A program made the position numbers and the translations under genes. The notes beneath the pieces are model-generated. The model was not told the origin of the DNA, did not search any database, and saw nothing but the letters and a program-made list of their open reading frames with translations. Shown here piece by piece: positions 6,788 through 51,546 of a stretch of 64,000 nucleotides of DNA. How positions within the stretch are numbered: position 1 is the stretch's first letter; each line of letters opens with the position of its first letter. The stretch is from Nitrospira sp. (GTDB taxonomy: Bacteria > Nitrospirota > Nitrospiria > Nitrospirales > Nitrospiraceae): NCBI GenBank assembly GCA_030123565.1, contig CP126122.1, forward strand, positions 310,001-374,000. The letters are read 5' to 3'.

Positions 6788-6950
6788 GGAGCGGCAGGCA
6801 GACTGGCTACTGCGCGCATCGGACGAGCACCGCTTTATCGTGCGCGTTCTGCGAGATGCGCGACGCGAGCAAGAACGAGCGTCACGTGTGCGCACGCCGG
6901 CGAGACGGTGAGCCGGCCGTGTCTTCAAAGGCCAGTCTGCCTGCCGCTCC
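6788..6950. repeat. 163-bp hairpin element with perfect 20-bp arms and a shared core
   Basis: GGAGCGGCAGGCAGACTGGC at 6788-6807 is the exact reverse complement of 6931-6950, enclosing 123 bp. Inside, 6809-6855 begins ACTGCGCGCATCGGACGAGC and ends GTGCGCGTTCTGCGAG. It is closely matched, in the opposite orientation, by 51273-51318 in a second hairpin after ntrX. The arms of the two elements are unrelated to each other. It separates the ECF sigma gene from its downstream partner, so it could limit read-through. No open frame in it looks coding. Confidence 0.75.
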
Positions 6951-6955
6951 CATCC

Positions 6956-16794: not shown

Positions 16795-19017
16795 TTAAAA
16801 CAGGCTCTTGCTGACCTCGTTGGATTTGGCGCTTTCATTGCCCGCCTTATCAAAGGCCGACACGGCAAAGAAATAGGTCGTGCCGACCGGCAGGTTCGGC
16901 ACGGTGAAGGTGGTGCTGTTGGTGACTTCGAAGGGGCTGGCGAAGCCATAAACTCCTGATCGCGTCCCCACGTAGACCCGGTACCCTGCCAGATCGGTTT
17001 CGGTGTTGGCGTTCCAAGTGACCGTGGCATTGGCTACCTTCGGCGTCGACGTTGTCGGCGATGTACCGGCGATCGGTGGAGGTGCAGTCGGGCTCGGCGG
17101 TGGAGGTGGGGGTGTGGTGACCGTCGGTTGACTTGGTGATGTCGGTGCGGGAGGCGATGCAGATGCCGTTTGTCCGGAGGCGATCGTTAACGTGACCGGA
17201 ATGCGAATGGTAGTGGCGATATTAGTTGGGCCAGAATCAACAATGTATACCACGCCGGAGTAGGTTCCGGCAGCGAGCCCGGCGGTCTGGGCTGTGATGA
17301 CGACTTGATCCGTTTCAGTAGTAATGGTCTGGGTGCTGCCATAGGGCGGATTCATCCCGACCCACCCCTGATTGGTGCTGAGGGAATAGGTGCGCCGATC
17401 CGTCCCCGATTTGCTCAAGTTTAGGGTACCGACGGGGTTGGCGCTTGTCAGGCTCAGGGCAGCGGGGCTGACTTGGATCAGTCCGCCGGTGACCGTCGCC
17501 GGTGGCGGAGGCGGCGGTGTGGTTGCCGGTGGGGGCGGTGTCACGGCGACGGGCGGTGGGGGCGTGGCGGCAGGAGGAGTTGGCGGCGGGGGCGGGGGGG
17601 CCGAGGCCGTGGGCGTTGCGGCGACCGTCAATGTCACCGGGACCCGTACTACGGTGGTGGCGGAGTTATTCGGCCCATAATCGACGACATACACGACTCC
17701 GGAGTAGGTCCCGGCTGCCAGGCCGGCGGTCTGGGCCGTAATGACGACTTGATCCGTTTCAGTGGAAATGGTCAGGGTGCTGCCGTAGGGCGGATTCATC
17801 CCGACCCATCCTTGGTTGGTGCTGAGATAGTAGGAGCGGAGATCCGTTCCTGACTTCTTCAAACTTAAGGTACCGACGGGGTTGGCGCTTGTCAGGCTCA
17901 GGGCAGCGGGGCTGACTTGGATCAGTCCGCCGGTGACCGTCGCCGGTGGCGGAGGCGGCGGTGTGGTTGCCGGTGGGGGCGGTGTCACGGCGACGGGCGG
18001 TGGGGGCGTGGCGGCAGGAGGAGTTGGCGGCGGGGGCGGGGGGGCCGAGGCCGTGGGCGTTGCGGCGACCGTCAATGTCACCGGGACCCGTACTACGGTG
18101 GTGGCGGAGTTATTCGGCCCATAATCGACGACATACACGACTCCGGAGTAGGTCCCGGCTGCCAGGCCGGCGGTCTGGGCCGTAATGACGACTTGATCCG
18201 TTTCAGTGGAAATGGTCAGGGTGCTGCCGTAGGGCGGATTCATCCCGACCCATCCTTGGTTGGTGCTGAGATAGTAGGAGCGGAGATCCGTTCCTGACTT
18301 CTTCAAACTTAAGGTACCGACGGGGTTGGCGCTTGTCAGGCTCAGGGCAGCGGGGCTGACTTGGATCAGTCCGCCGGTGACCGTCGCCGGTGGCGGAGGC
18401 GGCGGTGTGGTTGCCGGTGGGGGCGGTGTCACGGCCACGGGCGGTGGGGGCGTGGCGGCAGGAGGAGTTGGCGGCGGGGGCGTGGCTACAGGGGGTGCCG
18501 GCGGAGGAGTCGATACCGTGGGGGTCGTCGTGACCGTCAAGGTGACTGGGACACGCAACACGTTCATGAAGTTATTCGGCCCATAATCGACGACGTATAC
18601 GACGGCCGAGTAGGTCCCGGCCGCGAGGCCGGCGGTCCGGGCCGTGATCACCAATTGATCCGTTTCAGTGGTAATGGTATGGGTGCTGCCGTAGGGTGGA
18701 TTCATCCAGACCCATCCCTGGTTGGTACTGAGGTAGTAGGTGTGTTGATCGGTACTCGATTTCCGGAGCGTGATGGTACCGGCGGCGGTTTTGCCCATCT
18801 GTGCCGTCAAGCTCAGCGCAAAGGGACTCGGCACAATGGGGGCGGTTCCGTACTCGCCGGCCTTGGCAACGGCGGCGGCAATGGCAGGTTGTTGCAGGAG
18901 GCTATAGGTCGTCGAGCTGTCTGCTGCCGCGGCGATCGGGATCATGACTGTTTGGAGCAGTGTGGAATACAAACAACCGGCAACACTCACCATCAACAAG
19001 CTCGTGGGAGTTTTCAT
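16795..19017 (-). CDS. secreted repeat protein: four BACON-like Ig domains, proline linkers, fibronectin type III
   Basis: About 740 residues from ATG 19017, which has GGAGGT seven bases upstream. A signal peptide (LLMVSVAGCLYSTLL) leads into four tandem domains. Each carries YYLSTNQGWVGMNPPYGST, TETDQVVITAQTAGLAAGTY and VVYVVDYGPNN, which looks like the BACON/viral-Ig fold used in carbohydrate or mucin binding. Domains are joined by PPPP-rich linkers. The protein ends in a fibronectin type III domain (TETDLAGYRVYVGTRSGVYG, VGTTYFFAVSAFDKAGNES). The DNA of the middle domains is an exact 444-bp tandem repeat. It is probably an extracellular adhesion or matrix protein. Confidence 0.75.
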   Translation of the reverse strand: MKTPTSLLMVSVAGCLYSTLLQTVMIPIAAAADSSTTYSLLQQPAIAAAVAKAGEYGTAPIVPSPFALSLTAQMGKTAAGTITLRKSSTDQHTYYLSTNQGWVWMNPPYGSTHTITTETDQLVITARTAGLAAGTYSAVVYVVDYGPNNFMNVLRVPVTLTVTTTPTVSTPPPAPPVATPPPPTPPAATPPPPVAVTPPPPATTPPPPPPATVTGGLIQVSPAALSLTSANPVGTLSLKKSGTDLRSYYLSTNQGWVGMNPPYGSTLTISTETDQVVITAQTAGLAAGTYSGVVYVVDYGPNNSATTVVRVPVTLTVAATPTASAPPPPPPTPPAATPPPPVAVTPPPPATTPPPPPPATVTGGLIQVSPAALSLTSANPVGTLSLKKSGTDLRSYYLSTNQGWVGMNPPYGSTLTISTETDQVVITAQTAGLAAGTYSGVVYVVDYGPNNSATTVVRVPVTLTVAATPTASAPPPPPPTPPAATPPPPVAVTPPPPATTPPPPPPATVTGGLIQVSPAALSLTSANPVGTLNLSKSGTDRRTYSLSTNQGWVGMNPPYGSTQTITTETDQVVITAQTAGLAAGTYSGVVYIVDSGPTNIATTIRIPVTLTIASGQTASASPPAPTSPSQPTVTTPPPPPPSPTAPPPIAGTSPTTSTPKVANATVTWNANTETDLAGYRVYVGTRSGVYGFASPFEVTNSTTFTVPNLPVGTTYFFAVSAFDKAGNESAKSNEVSKSLF
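17437..18324. repeat. two identical 444-bp tandem repeats inside the surface-protein gene
   Basis: Positions 17437-17880 and 17881-18324 are head-to-tail copies in which I see no difference. A third copy starting at 18325 is the same for roughly 150 bases, apart from one C for G, and then diverges. Each unit encodes one Ig-like domain plus its proline linker. Such exact repeats point to recent duplication and may be collapsed or expanded in assemblies. Confidence 0.9.
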
Positions 19018-38132: not shown

Positions 38133-38146
38133 CCGAGCCCGGTTTG

Positions 38147-38234
38147 GAGTTCTGAGTTTGGAATTCTGAGTTTAGAGTTCGAGTCTGGTCAATTTCTTCA
38201 ATGCGTCGGACTCAACACTTATAACTCAGAACTC
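38147..38234. repeat. intergenic inverted repeat (GAGTTCTGAG)
   Basis: GAGTTCTGAG (38147-38156) is exactly repeated in reverse complement as CTCAGAACTC (38225-38234); the match extends to 12 of 13 bases. A second GATTCTGAG-like unit lies just inside the left arm. It sits between two plus-strand genes and may act as a transcription boundary. Confidence 0.6.
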
Positions 38235-38249
38235 ATAACTTACCTGACC

Positions 38250-47437: not shown

Positions 47438-49735
47438 ATGCCGGATTCGATGGACATGACGAAGCTCGTCCCGCCTGGCGTCCTGCAAGAAAATAAGCCG
47501 CCGTCGTCTTCCTCCATCGAGCATGAGCGGCGAAAACGCCATGTCCGGCCGGTCTGGATCGTCCTGATCCTGTTGCTGCCCTGTCTGGCCCTCACCGTCT
47601 ACTATGCTCAAACGGCGATTCCTCTCGGCGAGGAGTCGGACTCTTTTCTGCCCAGCACCGGGTATGCCTTCGTGCTCTTGCTGGTCAATCTCGACTTGAT
47701 CGGGTTGGTCGTCCTCACCCTGCTCCTGTCGCGCAACCTCATCAAGGCCTATTTCGAGCGGCGGCATCGGCTCGTGGGGTCGGGCTTCCGGGCGAAGTTG
47801 GTCGCCGCCTTCATCGGGTTTTCCCTGATCCCCACCGTCTTGCTGGCGTTGGTCGCCAGCGGTCTGGTCAATAAGGCCGTGGATGTTTGGTTCAACGATC
47901 AGATCGAACATGTCATGAAGGATTCGTATGAAGTCGCGCGCATGCACCATGCCGGACATGTGTCGCTGGCAATCAACAGCGCACGCGCCATCAGCCATGA
48001 GATCTTCCGCGAAGAGCTGCTGTTGCCCGAGCAACGGGATCTGCTGGTGGCGGCGATCGCCCGCAAGCGAACGGAATATGCGACGGCCGGGATCGAAGTC
48101 TTTTCCTCGAAGATGGAGACCTTGACCAAGTCGCTCGATCCTGAAGTGCCGGTCGCGGTGCTGGATCTGCCGATCGGCCAACTGGTGCTGCAGGTCATCA
48201 ACGGCAAGCAGGAACTCACCTCCGTCCAGGAGGCCCAGACTGGGCGGCTGGTGAGGGCCGGCGTCCCGATCGCGTCTACCCTGCGCCGCGGCGAGGTCGA
48301 AGGGGTGGTGGTCGTGGATGCCTACGTGCCCGAGTCGTTGCTCGGCAAGATGGAAAGCATCGGGCGCCAATACTCCGAGTATAAACAGATGAAGGCGATG
48401 AAGAACCCCATCAAGGCCGGGGCCTATCTGCTCGTGGCGGTGATTACCGTCATGATTCTGTTCAGTGCCACCTGGTTCGGGTTCTATGTGGCGCGCGGCA
48501 TCACCGTGCCGATTCAACGGCTGGCCGAGGCCACGGAAGCCATTGCGCAGGGGGATTTGTCGGTGCGGATCGAAGCCAAGGCGACGGATGAAATCGGCAC
48601 CCTGGTCGAATCCTTCAACCGCATGACGGCCGATTTGCAGAGCAGCAAAACGAAGGTGGAGGAGGCCAACGTGTCGCTTCGGCAGTCCAACCTGGAACTG
48701 GATCGCCGGCGCGCCTACATCGAAACGGTGGTCGATACGATCGCGGCGGGGCTCCTCTCCATCGATCGGCAGGGGATCATCACCACGTTCAATCCCTCGG
48801 CGGAGCGCATTCTGGGGCTCTGGGCCGACCGGTTCCGCGGCCGGTCCGCCAACGAGGTGTTCAAGGAATTCAAACTGGACCTGTTTCAGTCCGTCTACGA
48901 TCGCATGTTGGCCGACCATCGCGAGAACATCGCGCTCGAAGGGCAGTTGGACTTGCAGGGGCGGTTCCTGACCATCGGCGTGCATTGTTCCCGGATGAAG
49001 GACGAGTCGCACAAGGACCTCGGGTTCGTGCTGATCTTCGAGGACCTGTCGGAATTGATCAAGGCGCAGAAGGCGGCGGCCTGGCGTGAAGTCGCGCAGC
49101 GGATCGCCCACGAGATCAAGAACCCGCTCACGCCCATTCAACTGTCCGCGCAACGGCTGCGAAAAAAGTTCCAGGACAAGGCGCCGGACTTCGACCGGAT
49201 CTGCGACGAATCCACCCAGGTGATCGTCAACGAGGTCGGCAGCCTCAAGCAAATGCTGGACGAGTTCTCGAAATTCGCACGGATGCCGGCCCCGCACATG
49301 ACGATGGGGTCGCTGGACGATGTCGTGAAGGAAGTGGTCGCGCTCTATCAGAGTGCGCATCGCGAGATCGAATGTGTGGTGGATCTCGACCCCGATCTGC
49401 CGCCGTTCAACTTCGATCGGGAACAAATCAAACGGGCGTTGGTGAATCTGTGCGATAACGGCATTCACGCGATGAATCACAAGGGGCATTTGTGGATCAC
49501 GACCCGTTACGACATGAAACAACGCCGTGCGATTGTGACGGTGGCGGACGAGGGCACCGGGATCGCGCCGGAAGATCAGGAAAAGTTGTTCGTGCCGTAT
49601 TTCTCCCGAAAGAAGACGGGAACCGGGTTGGGCCTGGCGATCGTGCGGCGGATCGTGACCGATCACGACGGCCAGATTCACGCGGGGAACCATCAGCCCA
49701 AGGGGGCATCGTTTACCTTCGAGCTGCCGGTGTGA
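47438..49735 (+). CDS. ntrY: NtrY-type membrane sensor histidine kinase
   Basis: 765 residues with GGAG before the ATG. Four membrane helices lie in the first 350 residues, with a periplasmic segment between the third and fourth. Then follow a HAMP domain, a PAS domain (VDTIAAGLLSIDRQGIITTF) and the kinase core: H-box RIAHEIKNPLTPIQLSAQRL, N-box NLCDNGIHAMNHK, and the G boxes DEGTGIAPEDQE and KTGTGLGLAIVRRI. The domain order is that of NtrY. It phosphorylates the NtrX-type regulator encoded 108 bp downstream. The natural signal is probably envelope or redox state, not established here. Confidence 0.9.
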   Translation: MPDSMDMTKLVPPGVLQENKPPSSSSIEHERRKRHVRPVWIVLILLLPCLALTVYYAQTAIPLGEESDSFLPSTGYAFVLLLVNLDLIGLVVLTLLLSRNLIKAYFERRHRLVGSGFRAKLVAAFIGFSLIPTVLLALVASGLVNKAVDVWFNDQIEHVMKDSYEVARMHHAGHVSLAINSARAISHEIFREELLLPEQRDLLVAAIARKRTEYATAGIEVFSSKMETLTKSLDPEVPVAVLDLPIGQLVLQVINGKQELTSVQEAQTGRLVRAGVPIASTLRRGEVEGVVVVDAYVPESLLGKMESIGRQYSEYKQMKAMKNPIKAGAYLLVAVITVMILFSATWFGFYVARGITVPIQRLAEATEAIAQGDLSVRIEAKATDEIGTLVESFNRMTADLQSSKTKVEEANVSLRQSNLELDRRRAYIETVVDTIAAGLLSIDRQGIITTFNPSAERILGLWADRFRGRSANEVFKEFKLDLFQSVYDRMLADHRENIALEGQLDLQGRFLTIGVHCSRMKDESHKDLGFVLIFEDLSELIKAQKAAAWREVAQRIAHEIKNPLTPIQLSAQRLRKKFQDKAPDFDRICDESTQVIVNEVGSLKQMLDEFSKFARMPAPHMTMGSLDDVVKEVVALYQSAHREIECVVDLDPDLPPFNFDREQIKRALVNLCDNGIHAMNHKGHLWITTRYDMKQRRAIVTVADEGTGIAPEDQEKLFVPYFSRKKTGTGLGLAIVRRIVTDHDGQIHAGNHQPKGASFTFELPV

Positions 49736-49746
49736 GCGGAAGTTGT

Positions 49747-49819
49747 CAGTAGTCAGCGGTCAGCCGGCGCAGAAGTATATCCTCGAATGACGACGCTGAC
49801 AGCTGAGGGCTGACTGCTG
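49747..49819. repeat. imperfect 18-bp inverted repeat between ntrY and ntrX
   Basis: CAGTAGTCAGCGGTCAGC (49747-49764) matches the reverse complement of 49802-49819 at 15 of 18 positions, with about 37 bases between. It could attenuate expression of ntrX relative to ntrY. No U-run follows. Confidence 0.5.
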
Positions 49820-49843
49820 TCGGCTGAAAAAGTTGGAGAAGAC

Positions 49844-51244
49844 ATGTCTGCCTCGATTCTCATTGTCGATGATGAAGTGTCCATCCTGAACTCCTTAAGC
49901 AGCATCCTGGAGGATGAGGGCTATGAGGTCACCGTGGCCAAGAGCGGCGTCGAGGCCCTCAAGCTCTGCGCGGTGAATCCTCCGGAACTGATGATGTTGG
50001 ATATTTGGATGCCTGAGATGGACGGGTTGGAGACGCTGCGGCGATTGCGGGATTTAGTGCCGAACACGCAGGTCATGATGATGTCCGGCCATGGGTCGAT
50101 CGAGACGGCGGTGAAGGCCATCAAGCTCGGGGCCTACGACTACATTGAAAAGCCGCTCTCGCTCGAAAACGTCACGCTGCGGGTGAAACATGCCTTGGAT
50201 CAACACCGGTTGGAGCAGGAAAATCGCACCCTCCGCACGAAGGTGGAGGGGAAGTTCGAGCTGATCGGGCAGGCGCCGGTGATGCAGCAGTTGAGGCAAA
50301 TCATCGAAACGGCCGGCCCGACCAACAGTCGAGTCCTGATCGGCGGCGAGAACGGAACCGGAAAAGAGTTGGTGGCGCGGGCCATCCATCAGCACAGCGC
50401 CAGGGTGGGCCGTCCCTTTGTCGCGGTGAACTGCGCCGCCATTCCTGAAACGTTGATCGAGAGCGAATTGTTCGGGCATGAGCGAGGTTCATTCAGCGGC
50501 GCCACGGCCATGAAGCGCGGCCAGTTCGAGCAGGCGGACGGCGGTACTCTGTTTCTCGATGAAATTGCGGACATGAGCCTGAACACCCAAGCCAAGGTCT
50601 TGCGGGCCCTGCAGGAGCAGCAGTTCACACGGGTGGGGGGCACGAAACTCATCAAGGTCGATGTGCGGGTCTTGGCGGCCTCCAACAAAGATCTGCTGAA
50701 GGAAATTGAAAAGGGTACCTTCCGGGAAGACCTGTTTTACCGACTCAACGTGGTGCCGATCGTGGTGCCGACCCTGCGCGACCGCCGCGAGGACATTCCA
50801 TTGCTCGTGAAACATTTCCTGCGGGTGCATGCGGAAGAACAGGGTTTGAAGATCAAGCAGGTGTCGCCGGAAGCCATGGACGTGTTCATGCAGTATGAGT
50901 GGCCGGGCAACATTCGCGAGTTGCGCAACCTCATCGAACGACTCATGATCATGGTGCCGGGCTCCGTGATCGAGGCCTCGCATGCGTCGATGGCGCTGCA
51001 GGTGCGTCCCCAGTTGTCGGCGCCGCAATCGGCCGTCGCCGCTCAGCCGGCCAATACGTTGCTGACCAAGCACTACGATTCCCTTCGCGATGCCAGGAAC
51101 GCCTTCGAGAAGGAGTTCATTGCCCGCAAACTCCGCGAACACCACTGGAACATCTCCCGCACGGCCGAAGACCTCAAGATCGAGCGCAGTCACCTGCATC
51201 GGAAGATCAAATTGCTGGATGTCGAGATGCGGCCGGAAAGCTAG
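49844..51244 (+). CDS. ntrX: NtrX-type response regulator with altered sigma-54 contact loop
   Basis: 466 residues with GGAGA before the ATG. The receiver domain has Asp53 (MLDIWMPEMDG), followed by an AAA+ domain with Walker A GGENGTGKELVARAIH and Walker B TLFLDEIADMS, and a C-terminal Fis-type HTH (NISRTAEDLKIERSHLHRKI). The loop that contacts sigma-54, normally GAFTGA, reads GSFSGA at residues 215-220. Several NtrX proteins have altered loops and act without sigma-54, so this one may too. It is the partner of the upstream NtrY kinase. Confidence 0.9.
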   Translation: MSASILIVDDEVSILNSLSSILEDEGYEVTVAKSGVEALKLCAVNPPELMMLDIWMPEMDGLETLRRLRDLVPNTQVMMMSGHGSIETAVKAIKLGAYDYIEKPLSLENVTLRVKHALDQHRLEQENRTLRTKVEGKFELIGQAPVMQQLRQIIETAGPTNSRVLIGGENGTGKELVARAIHQHSARVGRPFVAVNCAAIPETLIESELFGHERGSFSGATAMKRGQFEQADGGTLFLDEIADMSLNTQAKVLRALQEQQFTRVGGTKLIKVDVRVLAASNKDLLKEIEKGTFREDLFYRLNVVPIVVPTLRDRREDIPLLVKHFLRVHAEEQGLKIKQVSPEAMDVFMQYEWPGNIRELRNLIERLMIMVPGSVIEASHASMALQVRPQLSAPQSAVAAQPANTLLTKHYDSLRDARNAFEKEFIARKLREHHWNISRTAEDLKIERSHLHRKIKLLDVEMRPES

Positions 51245-51546
51245 GGGGAACGAGGCCCTATAGCCTCCCTTGCTCGCAGAACGCGCACCTCGGAAGGTGC
51301 TCGTTCGATGCGCGCAGTCAGGAGGCCATAGGGCCCTGTTCTGTGAAGGGGGATGAAGTACATAGGCACGCCTCCGATTCTTTCTCGCATGGGAACGGGC
51401 GCGTCTTCGTGGGCCCCGTTCGACGTCACCGGCGGGGTTTTCTTGCTGGATGCTATGTCCCACCATCTGCAAACCGGCAATGCAAGCGGCATTGCGCACG
51501 GAGTGTGATGCCTTAAATTAGCTGGCCGTTTGAAGGAGGATGTTAG
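51245..51546. other. 302-bp gap after ntrX
   Basis: The first 90 bases hold the hairpin element just described. In the rest I see only short, weak inverted repeats and no coding frame. The Shine-Dalgarno sequence AAGGAGGA of the next small gene lies at its right end. Confidence 0.5.
51253..51336. repeat. 84-bp hairpin element sharing the core of 6788-6950
   Basis: Arms 51253-51268 and 51321-51336 are inverted copies (14 of 16 bases). The interior 51273-51318, read on the minus strand, begins ACTGCGCGCATCGAACGAGC and ends GTGCGCGTTCTGCGAG, as in the element after the ECF sigma gene. A small perfect stem GCACCT/AGGTGC lies at 51285-51300. It follows the ntrX stop codon by eight bases and may act as a terminator. 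Confidence 0.75.

Follow-up and report, generated by a model that had tools for sequence, protein, structure and literature searches.

A dispersed hairpin family of Nitrospiraceae with a conserved apical core and an orientation bias behind stop codons

We identified a family of short, non-coding hairpins that is dispersed through the genomes of Nitrospira and its relatives, that lies outside predicted genes and that preferentially follows stop codons in one orientation. The family is real and mobile, its layout is unusual, and its strand signal is unexplained. The reading we prefer, with a probability of about one half, is that it represents a non-autonomous, REPIN- or MITE-like mobile hairpin of the Nitrospiraceae that moved as a folded single strand and of which some copies have been kept in operons. 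As the palindromes are abundant and occur in occupied, empty, nested and core-swapped versions, they make the movement of REP-like hairpins directly testable, along with their one-way facing behind stops and the maintenance of paired arms. The strand-specific wobble signal allows structure in a single strand to be told apart from a mere palindrome in the DNA. Nitrospiraceae are important in nitrification, and one of the copies, that between atpD and atpC, lies in a central energy operon.

Structure and distribution of the family

Each copy consists of an imperfect hairpin of approximately 95 nt in a unit of approximately 129 nt, with a conserved asymmetric apical core on a stem of about 20 bp. 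Read along the strand of the adjacent gene whose end lies at the element (gene sense), the layout is arm, TGCTCGCAGAACGCGCAC, loop, GTGCTCGTTCGATGCGCGCA, arm. Two copies, at sites A and B, are described from the window, the whole 64,000-nucleotide stretch of DNA that was analysed (Table 1); site B was first read on the other strand. Direct reading of the sequence shows that the minus strand at 51273-51315 and the plus strand at 6812-6855 share GCGCGCATCGRACGAGCACC, a short loop and GTGCGCGTTCTGCGAG, the last of which has exactly two exact matches in the 64-kb window. The earlier note's claim of one core present at both sites in inverted form is therefore correct. A third GTGCGCGTTCTGCGAG match in the window has three mismatches and was discarded as noise.

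Table 1. Coordinates of the elements and associated features at sites A and B
Feature	Position	Strand	Basis
Site B element	6788-6951		
Site B 3' arm, pairs with 6931-6951	6788..6807	-	sequence, folding
Site B core, 3' strand GTGCTCGTCCGATGCGCGCA	6811..6830	-	sequence
Site B core, 5' strand CTCGCAGAACGCGCAC	6840..6855	-	sequence
70-nt multi-hairpin module between 5' arm and core at site B	6856..6925	-	without counterpart in the G006 ortholog (L429)
Site B 5' arm; upstream gene on minus strand, ends at about 6956	6931..6951	-	sequence, folding, ortholog comparison
Gene upstream of site A: sigma-54 NtrC-type response regulator, 466 aa (named from its translation, not from a family search)	49844..51244	+	ORF list
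Site A element	51245-51344		
Site A 5' arm (5' as read along the upstream gene)	51248..51268	+	sequence, folding; G042 (L257) has a homologous arm with compensated changes
Site A core, 5' strand TGCTCGCAGAACGCGCAC	51271..51288	+	sequence and 96-copy alignment
Site A core, 3' strand GTGCTCGTTCGATGCGCGCA	51297..51316	+	sequence and 96-copy alignment
Site A 3' arm, pairs with 51248-51268	51321..51342	+	sequence, folding
Remnant of second hairpin family ACGCCTCCGATTCTTTCTCGC	51368..51388	+	compared with L243-L269, by eye

The arms are GAACGAGGCCCTATAGCCTCC and GGAGGCCATAGGGCCCTGTTC at site A and GGAGCGGCAGGCAGACTGGC and GCCAGTCTGCCTGCCGCTCC at site B. Folded as DNA, site A gives -33.0 kcal/mol on the plus strand (z -6.5) and -36.7 kcal/mol on the minus strand (z -7.9, each against 200 shuffles); folded as RNA, site B gives -88.6 kcal/mol (z -4.45 against shuffles). 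The site B hairpin carries the 70-nt insert, which corrects the earlier picture of its shape.

In an alignment of 96 copies the 13 pairs of the apical core, which include conserved mismatches and an asymmetric internal loop, hardly vary in sequence, and their pairing is at least 99%. Variation is found in the 19 outer pairs, every one of which shows at least one double change. Cells with double changes number 280 compared with 119 after shuffling, a count reached in 0 of 500 shuffles, and 81.9% of cells are paired compared with 75.0% in shuffles. Sliding the register by one to three columns lowers pairing to 31-53%. Among 182 copies an arm scores a mean of 13.8 with its own partner, 8.1 with a swapped partner and 6.2 when shuffled, so that the arms are indeed inverted relative to each other site by site, as the earlier note had it.

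The same note regarded the arms of the two sites as wholly different and as inverted copies of the local flank. The site A arms are strongly diverged. However, those of site B resemble the family consensus, which in a column profile of 140 copies is GGGAGYGGCCAGGTGCCCTTC with a near-complement and small bulges. The 5' arms of different copies are also more alike than shuffles (9.5 versus 6.2, 182 copies), and many copies in a sister genus still carry near-intact consensus arms. Because the consensus is common to copies and nearly intact in the sister genus, the arms belong to the element and have diverged from a shared ancestor while staying paired, rather than having been copied from the flank. 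We therefore rejected arms as pure local inversions: young copies share consensus arms and orthologous copies diverge by compensation. Shared arms, as in ordinary REPs, had been named beforehand as the sign that would speak against the flank-derived reading, and they are what we found among the young copies.

The genome searched is a single contig of 4,616,681 bases. A 16-mer with up to two mismatches matches it 35 times, compared with 8 for the reversed control. A covariance model (R1) was built on 96 copies, these being the ones used out of 159 distinct references. At E<=0.1 it returned 66 rows, or 57 places once nine opposite-strand rows of the same place are removed. The model matches all 29 same-genus genomes (7-56 rows each at E<=0.001). 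In the order as a whole, 57 of 117 genomes have matches, and 53 of these belong to the window's own family; most genomes of the sister genus g12 have at least 34 matches. Of 25 genomes from the same genus, 23 contain the core pattern, which was not found in any of the 16 genomes examined from other genera of the order. For all 80 loci with this pattern among the matches listed, drawn from at least 120 stretches, the contigs are titled Nitrospira, Nitrospirae or Nitrospiraceae. Chance resemblance was rejected on the basis of the reversed control, the model matches and the distribution of the core pattern, and the proposal of a dispersed family is confirmed by the 57 places and the 29 genomes. 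One significant model match each was observed in G025, G037, G083 and G086, which belong to two other families of the order; these may represent transfer, contamination or old relatives.

Our literature searches returned no description of this Nitrospira hairpin family; the excerpted text of PMC12306157 gives a repeat count for Nitrospira moscoviensis and describes no family there. An Rfam scan of the whole window returned only a tRNA above the gathering score, and a known RNA family was rejected for this reason.

Position relative to genes and variation among orthologous sites

Positions were counted for core-1 elements flanked on each side by 400 nt or more, using approximate gene calls from a home-made gene finder. 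None of the 230 distinct elements is inside a predicted gene. The 5' neighbour ends toward the element in 138, and its stop is -20 to +12 nt from the arm base in 74. The 3' neighbour runs toward the element in 45, with its stop in the same range in only one. This agrees with the earlier suggestion that the sites lie behind stop codons. The orientation bias is found in both consensus-like copies (26 versus 1) and diverged copies (9 versus 0). In the source genome the upstream gene ends toward the element at 41 of 56 places, 22 of 57 places start -17 to +5 nt from a co-directional stop, and only 6 are between convergent genes. A general survey of hairpins after stops in the window, based on rough gene calls, identified them at 5 of 30 gene ends and at 34 of 150 shuffled controls and was uninformative. 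A hairpin with CAGTCAGC-type repeats is present at 49736-49850, immediately after the gene at 47438-49735.

The fixed orientation right after the stop favors a different explanation, namely a host RNA element: a 3'-end hairpin that would stabilise the upstream message or tune co-transcribed genes and be kept by selection on the mRNA. Its case is strengthened by the 88 of 230 elements that are between two co-directional genes compared with 16 between convergent ones, and by vertical maintenance at the atpD-atpC site. At this site 18 of 28 orthologs have a detected core, and hairpin variants can be made out by eye in the others; the gene names atpD and atpC come from reading of the sequence. The arms at this site form three groups by eye, all self-complementary and with compensated changes, and four loci have kept the arms and lost the top of the core. 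Since the next gene begins only a few tens of nucleotides beyond, the copy lies inside an operon. Against a host RNA element are the recent copies within loops of other hairpins, the absence of a T-tract after the stem in the 140-copy profile and of any terminator-like match in a scan of site A, and the strand asymmetry described below. We consider it possible but on the unlikely side. Host use at sites such as atpD-atpC is plausible. An intrinsic terminator was rejected given the missing T-tract, the negative scan and the many copies between co-directional genes.

Evidence for mobility comes from comparison with relatives. In the source genome one copy is located within the loop of a related core-2 hairpin (...CGCGGCCTCAGAAGG^CCCTCGTTGG...). 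The nested copy is seen in L186, while the same host loop is without the element in L224, L177 and L125. L044, with a nested copy, and L207 provide a second with/without pair of the host hairpin. The host half GCGGCCTCAGAAGG is directly upstream in 40 of 206 simple core-1 copies, the downstream half follows in 26, and 11 have both; the unit between the two halves measures 129 nt in five of these 11 and 126-143 nt in the remaining copies. In the sister genus, copies with shared arms have unrelated flanks inside single genomes. Empty sites in relatives and copies in the loops of other hairpins indicate that the element is mobile, as the earlier note had suspected. The nested copies may be descended from amplified composites and therefore may not be independent insertions. 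In the 83 young copies that are not nested, the left flank is a purine run with a consensus like GAAGG, and the right end is GGAAGG. The GAAGG on the two sides could represent a target, a signature of the element's ends, or the two combined.

Orthologous sites vary extensively. The stop of the gene upstream of site A is TAG (51242-51244), and ortholog ends were aligned in 28 loci. Only two of these have the core (the source genome and G042), with homologous, compensated arms; most of the others have a different long hairpin instead. By eye, this second family fills the slot in most relatives (L243-L269). It follows the stop as GCTGCTGAAAANGG... / GTTCTCGGCTCGAA ... GGGTACGCCTC ... CTGCGGCCTTG, and its variable arms are self-complementary as well. 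The site B element is likewise present in two orthologs (the source genome and G006); in 22 orthologous loci the 420 nt next to the stop contain no core, and 2 of the 26 could not be judged. Behind the L189 gene, 10 of 27 loci have a core right after the stop in core-1, core-2 or long module form, and five further loci have one more than 200 nt away. At one orthologous site (L162:3528 versus L310:848) the arms are homologous and the core is switched between core-1 and core-2.

A further explanation is that the hairpin is templated, so that after insertion template switching copies one arm, including the host gene end, onto the other without selection. This would account for the wholly different arms at one orthologous site (L090/L098). 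It is also consistent with the pairing of stop codons located inside an arm. From 54 near-stop elements, with the main count on 20 clusters, all three stop bases are paired in 9 of 20 clusters, compared with a mean of 4.35 and a maximum of 7 over 20 partner shuffles. In L124:4429-4530 and L104:428-529 the palindrome extends past the stop and into the upstream gene's final sense codon (CTGTAG / CTACAG), and it differs between the two species with partial compensation. However, the last sense codon shows no overall pairing excess (51 versus 54.75, 36 clusters), young copies share consensus arms, and changes between orthologs, judged by eye, are mostly scattered compensated substitutions and not block copies. 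The earlier note had suggested a mobile or templated hairpin; what stands of the templated idea is a weak remainder, the over-paired stop codon, and we regard templating as quite improbable.

Strand asymmetry and the search for a transposase

Mismatches were counted in 202 of 226 elements, those with at least 12 paired positions. In gene sense the arms contain 266 A.C and 61 G.U mismatches. After clustering at 75% identity the counts are 89 and 24 (68 clusters, p=6e-10). The A.C excess is found at many positions and in both polarities, and on the opposite strand these mismatches become G.T wobbles. When both strands are folded as RNA, the antisense one is more stable in 155 elements versus 45, and in 55 clusters versus 12. 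An excess of A.C over G.U of about 4 to 1 in mRNA sense, with the mRNA strand less stable, is the opposite of what selection on RNA predicts and counts against the host RNA element; it also weakens our first idea, an mRNA hairpin of the upstream gene. Selection against a stable mRNA hairpin would yield the same counts.

Core-2 hairpins have the same asymmetry (36 versus 12), and the other family at the site A orthologs shows the same tendency in a less independent sample (19 versus 6). The asymmetry may thus not mark movement of the core-1 family. Changes between orthologs lack the asymmetry: we counted 25 gene-sense and 30 antisense wobbles with 25 double changes, in 9 groups of which at least one is of doubtful orthology. 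Our interpretation is that the folded antisense strand is under selection during spread and not while the element is resident.

On the mobile-hairpin reading, the element would be mobilised in trans in the form of one folded strand, that antisense to the upstream gene. A recombinase would recognise this strand by the core and the conserved mismatches and would join the element beside a purine-rich GAAGG-like target on the gene-sense strand. Such movement would explain both the fixed orientation and the wobble asymmetry. Following insertion the arms have diverged and stayed paired. Copies just behind stop codons may be those that were tolerated, and some, for example that at atpD-atpC, have persisted throughout the genus, probably because a strong intercistronic hairpin brings a benefit or does no harm. 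Nested forms would be built by insertion into existing hairpins together with module insertions. A stronger version, in which insertion of the folded antisense strand is locked to stops and hairpin loops in one orientation without a Y1 enzyme, and template switching afterwards extends the palindrome into the gene end until the arms mirror the gene, seems to us very unlikely.

Y1_Tnp genes occur in 19 of 29 genus genomes; the other 10 have no match even though all carry the hairpin element. In 31 loci, taken from 47 Y1_Tnp places of which three are in the source genome, no true copy was found within about 1.5 kb; fuzzy matches nearby are single half-cores with up to four mismatches. Linkage to a Y1 transposase was therefore rejected, with Y1_Tnp placed in the source genome and the genus and no true copy adjoining. 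Copy number correlates only moderately with the total Y1 count (Spearman rho 0.52, 29 genomes). The data do not support a strict-sense RAYT as the mover, and a Y1-type enzyme acting in trans is possible. In L031 an IS200-type transposase is beside another transposase and has its own end hairpins, CCCCGCAGC...GCTGCGGGG, which are unrelated to the family.

Comparison with known repeats

The elements could also be ordinary REP or BIME repeats mobilised by a RAYT, unusual only in their divergence. They are extragenic, palindromic, nested, mosaic and dispersed. According to the available part of PMC3116915, REPINs are mobile REP doublets, one of which may insert into or beside another, and the Nitrospira hairpins similarly form clusters by insertion into or next to one another. 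According to the portion of PMC2817692 at hand, REP palindromes are kept by complementary changes, as here, and the GC-rich, mosaic composition is also alike. The consensus hairpin base is GGGAG on both strands, which resembles the GT(A/G)G-type REP head only loosely. The differences are considerable. REPs and REPINs have conserved inverted ends and a variable middle, whereas here the conserved part is apical and nearly invariant and the arms vary. REPs always flank RAYT genes in the sections of PMC2817692 consulted, whereas no RAYT flanked by copies was identified and none of the 31 Y1 loci carries the element. The Nitrospira element is several times longer than the single REPs tabulated there, and the richest genus member has 56 rows, compared with the more than 100 per genome that the same paper calls usual. 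The strict orientation behind stop codons is a further difference. Ordinary REPs are in our view an unlikely explanation.

MITEs are non-coding units with complementary ends and possible short direct repeats. The Nitrospira unit is also non-coding, its arms are complementary ends, and the GAAGG-like runs on both sides are possible short direct repeats. However, the arms form a continuous stem around a conserved core, and a limited search found no autonomous partner. Intercistronic REP hairpins, such as that of malE-malF, stabilise the upstream mRNA. They resemble the present elements in their location between co-transcribed genes behind a stop codon; in the Nitrospira case the wobble evidence points instead to the antisense strand. 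Insertion sequences that target REPs (IS1397, ISPpu9 and ISRm22) strike one exact base of the palindrome, as reported in the accessible text of PMC1525189. Insertion at one exact palindrome position is a shared feature; the piece inserted in Nitrospira is, however, a gene-less hairpin of a related family.

Several other repeats were observed. The core-less orthologous post-stop sites in L083, L090, L098 and L128 contain near-simple palindromes (AGGTTAAGGTCGAGG..., GAGTGATGGGTGATGAG..., CGTGAAACGTTAAACGTG), and at 38142-38239 the window has an inverted repeat of this simple-sequence kind (GAGTTCTGAGTTTGG... / ...ACTCAGAACTC). A unit of 444-462 bp is present in four tandem copies at 17209-18858 of the window, separated by GGCGGTGGGGGC-type repeats.
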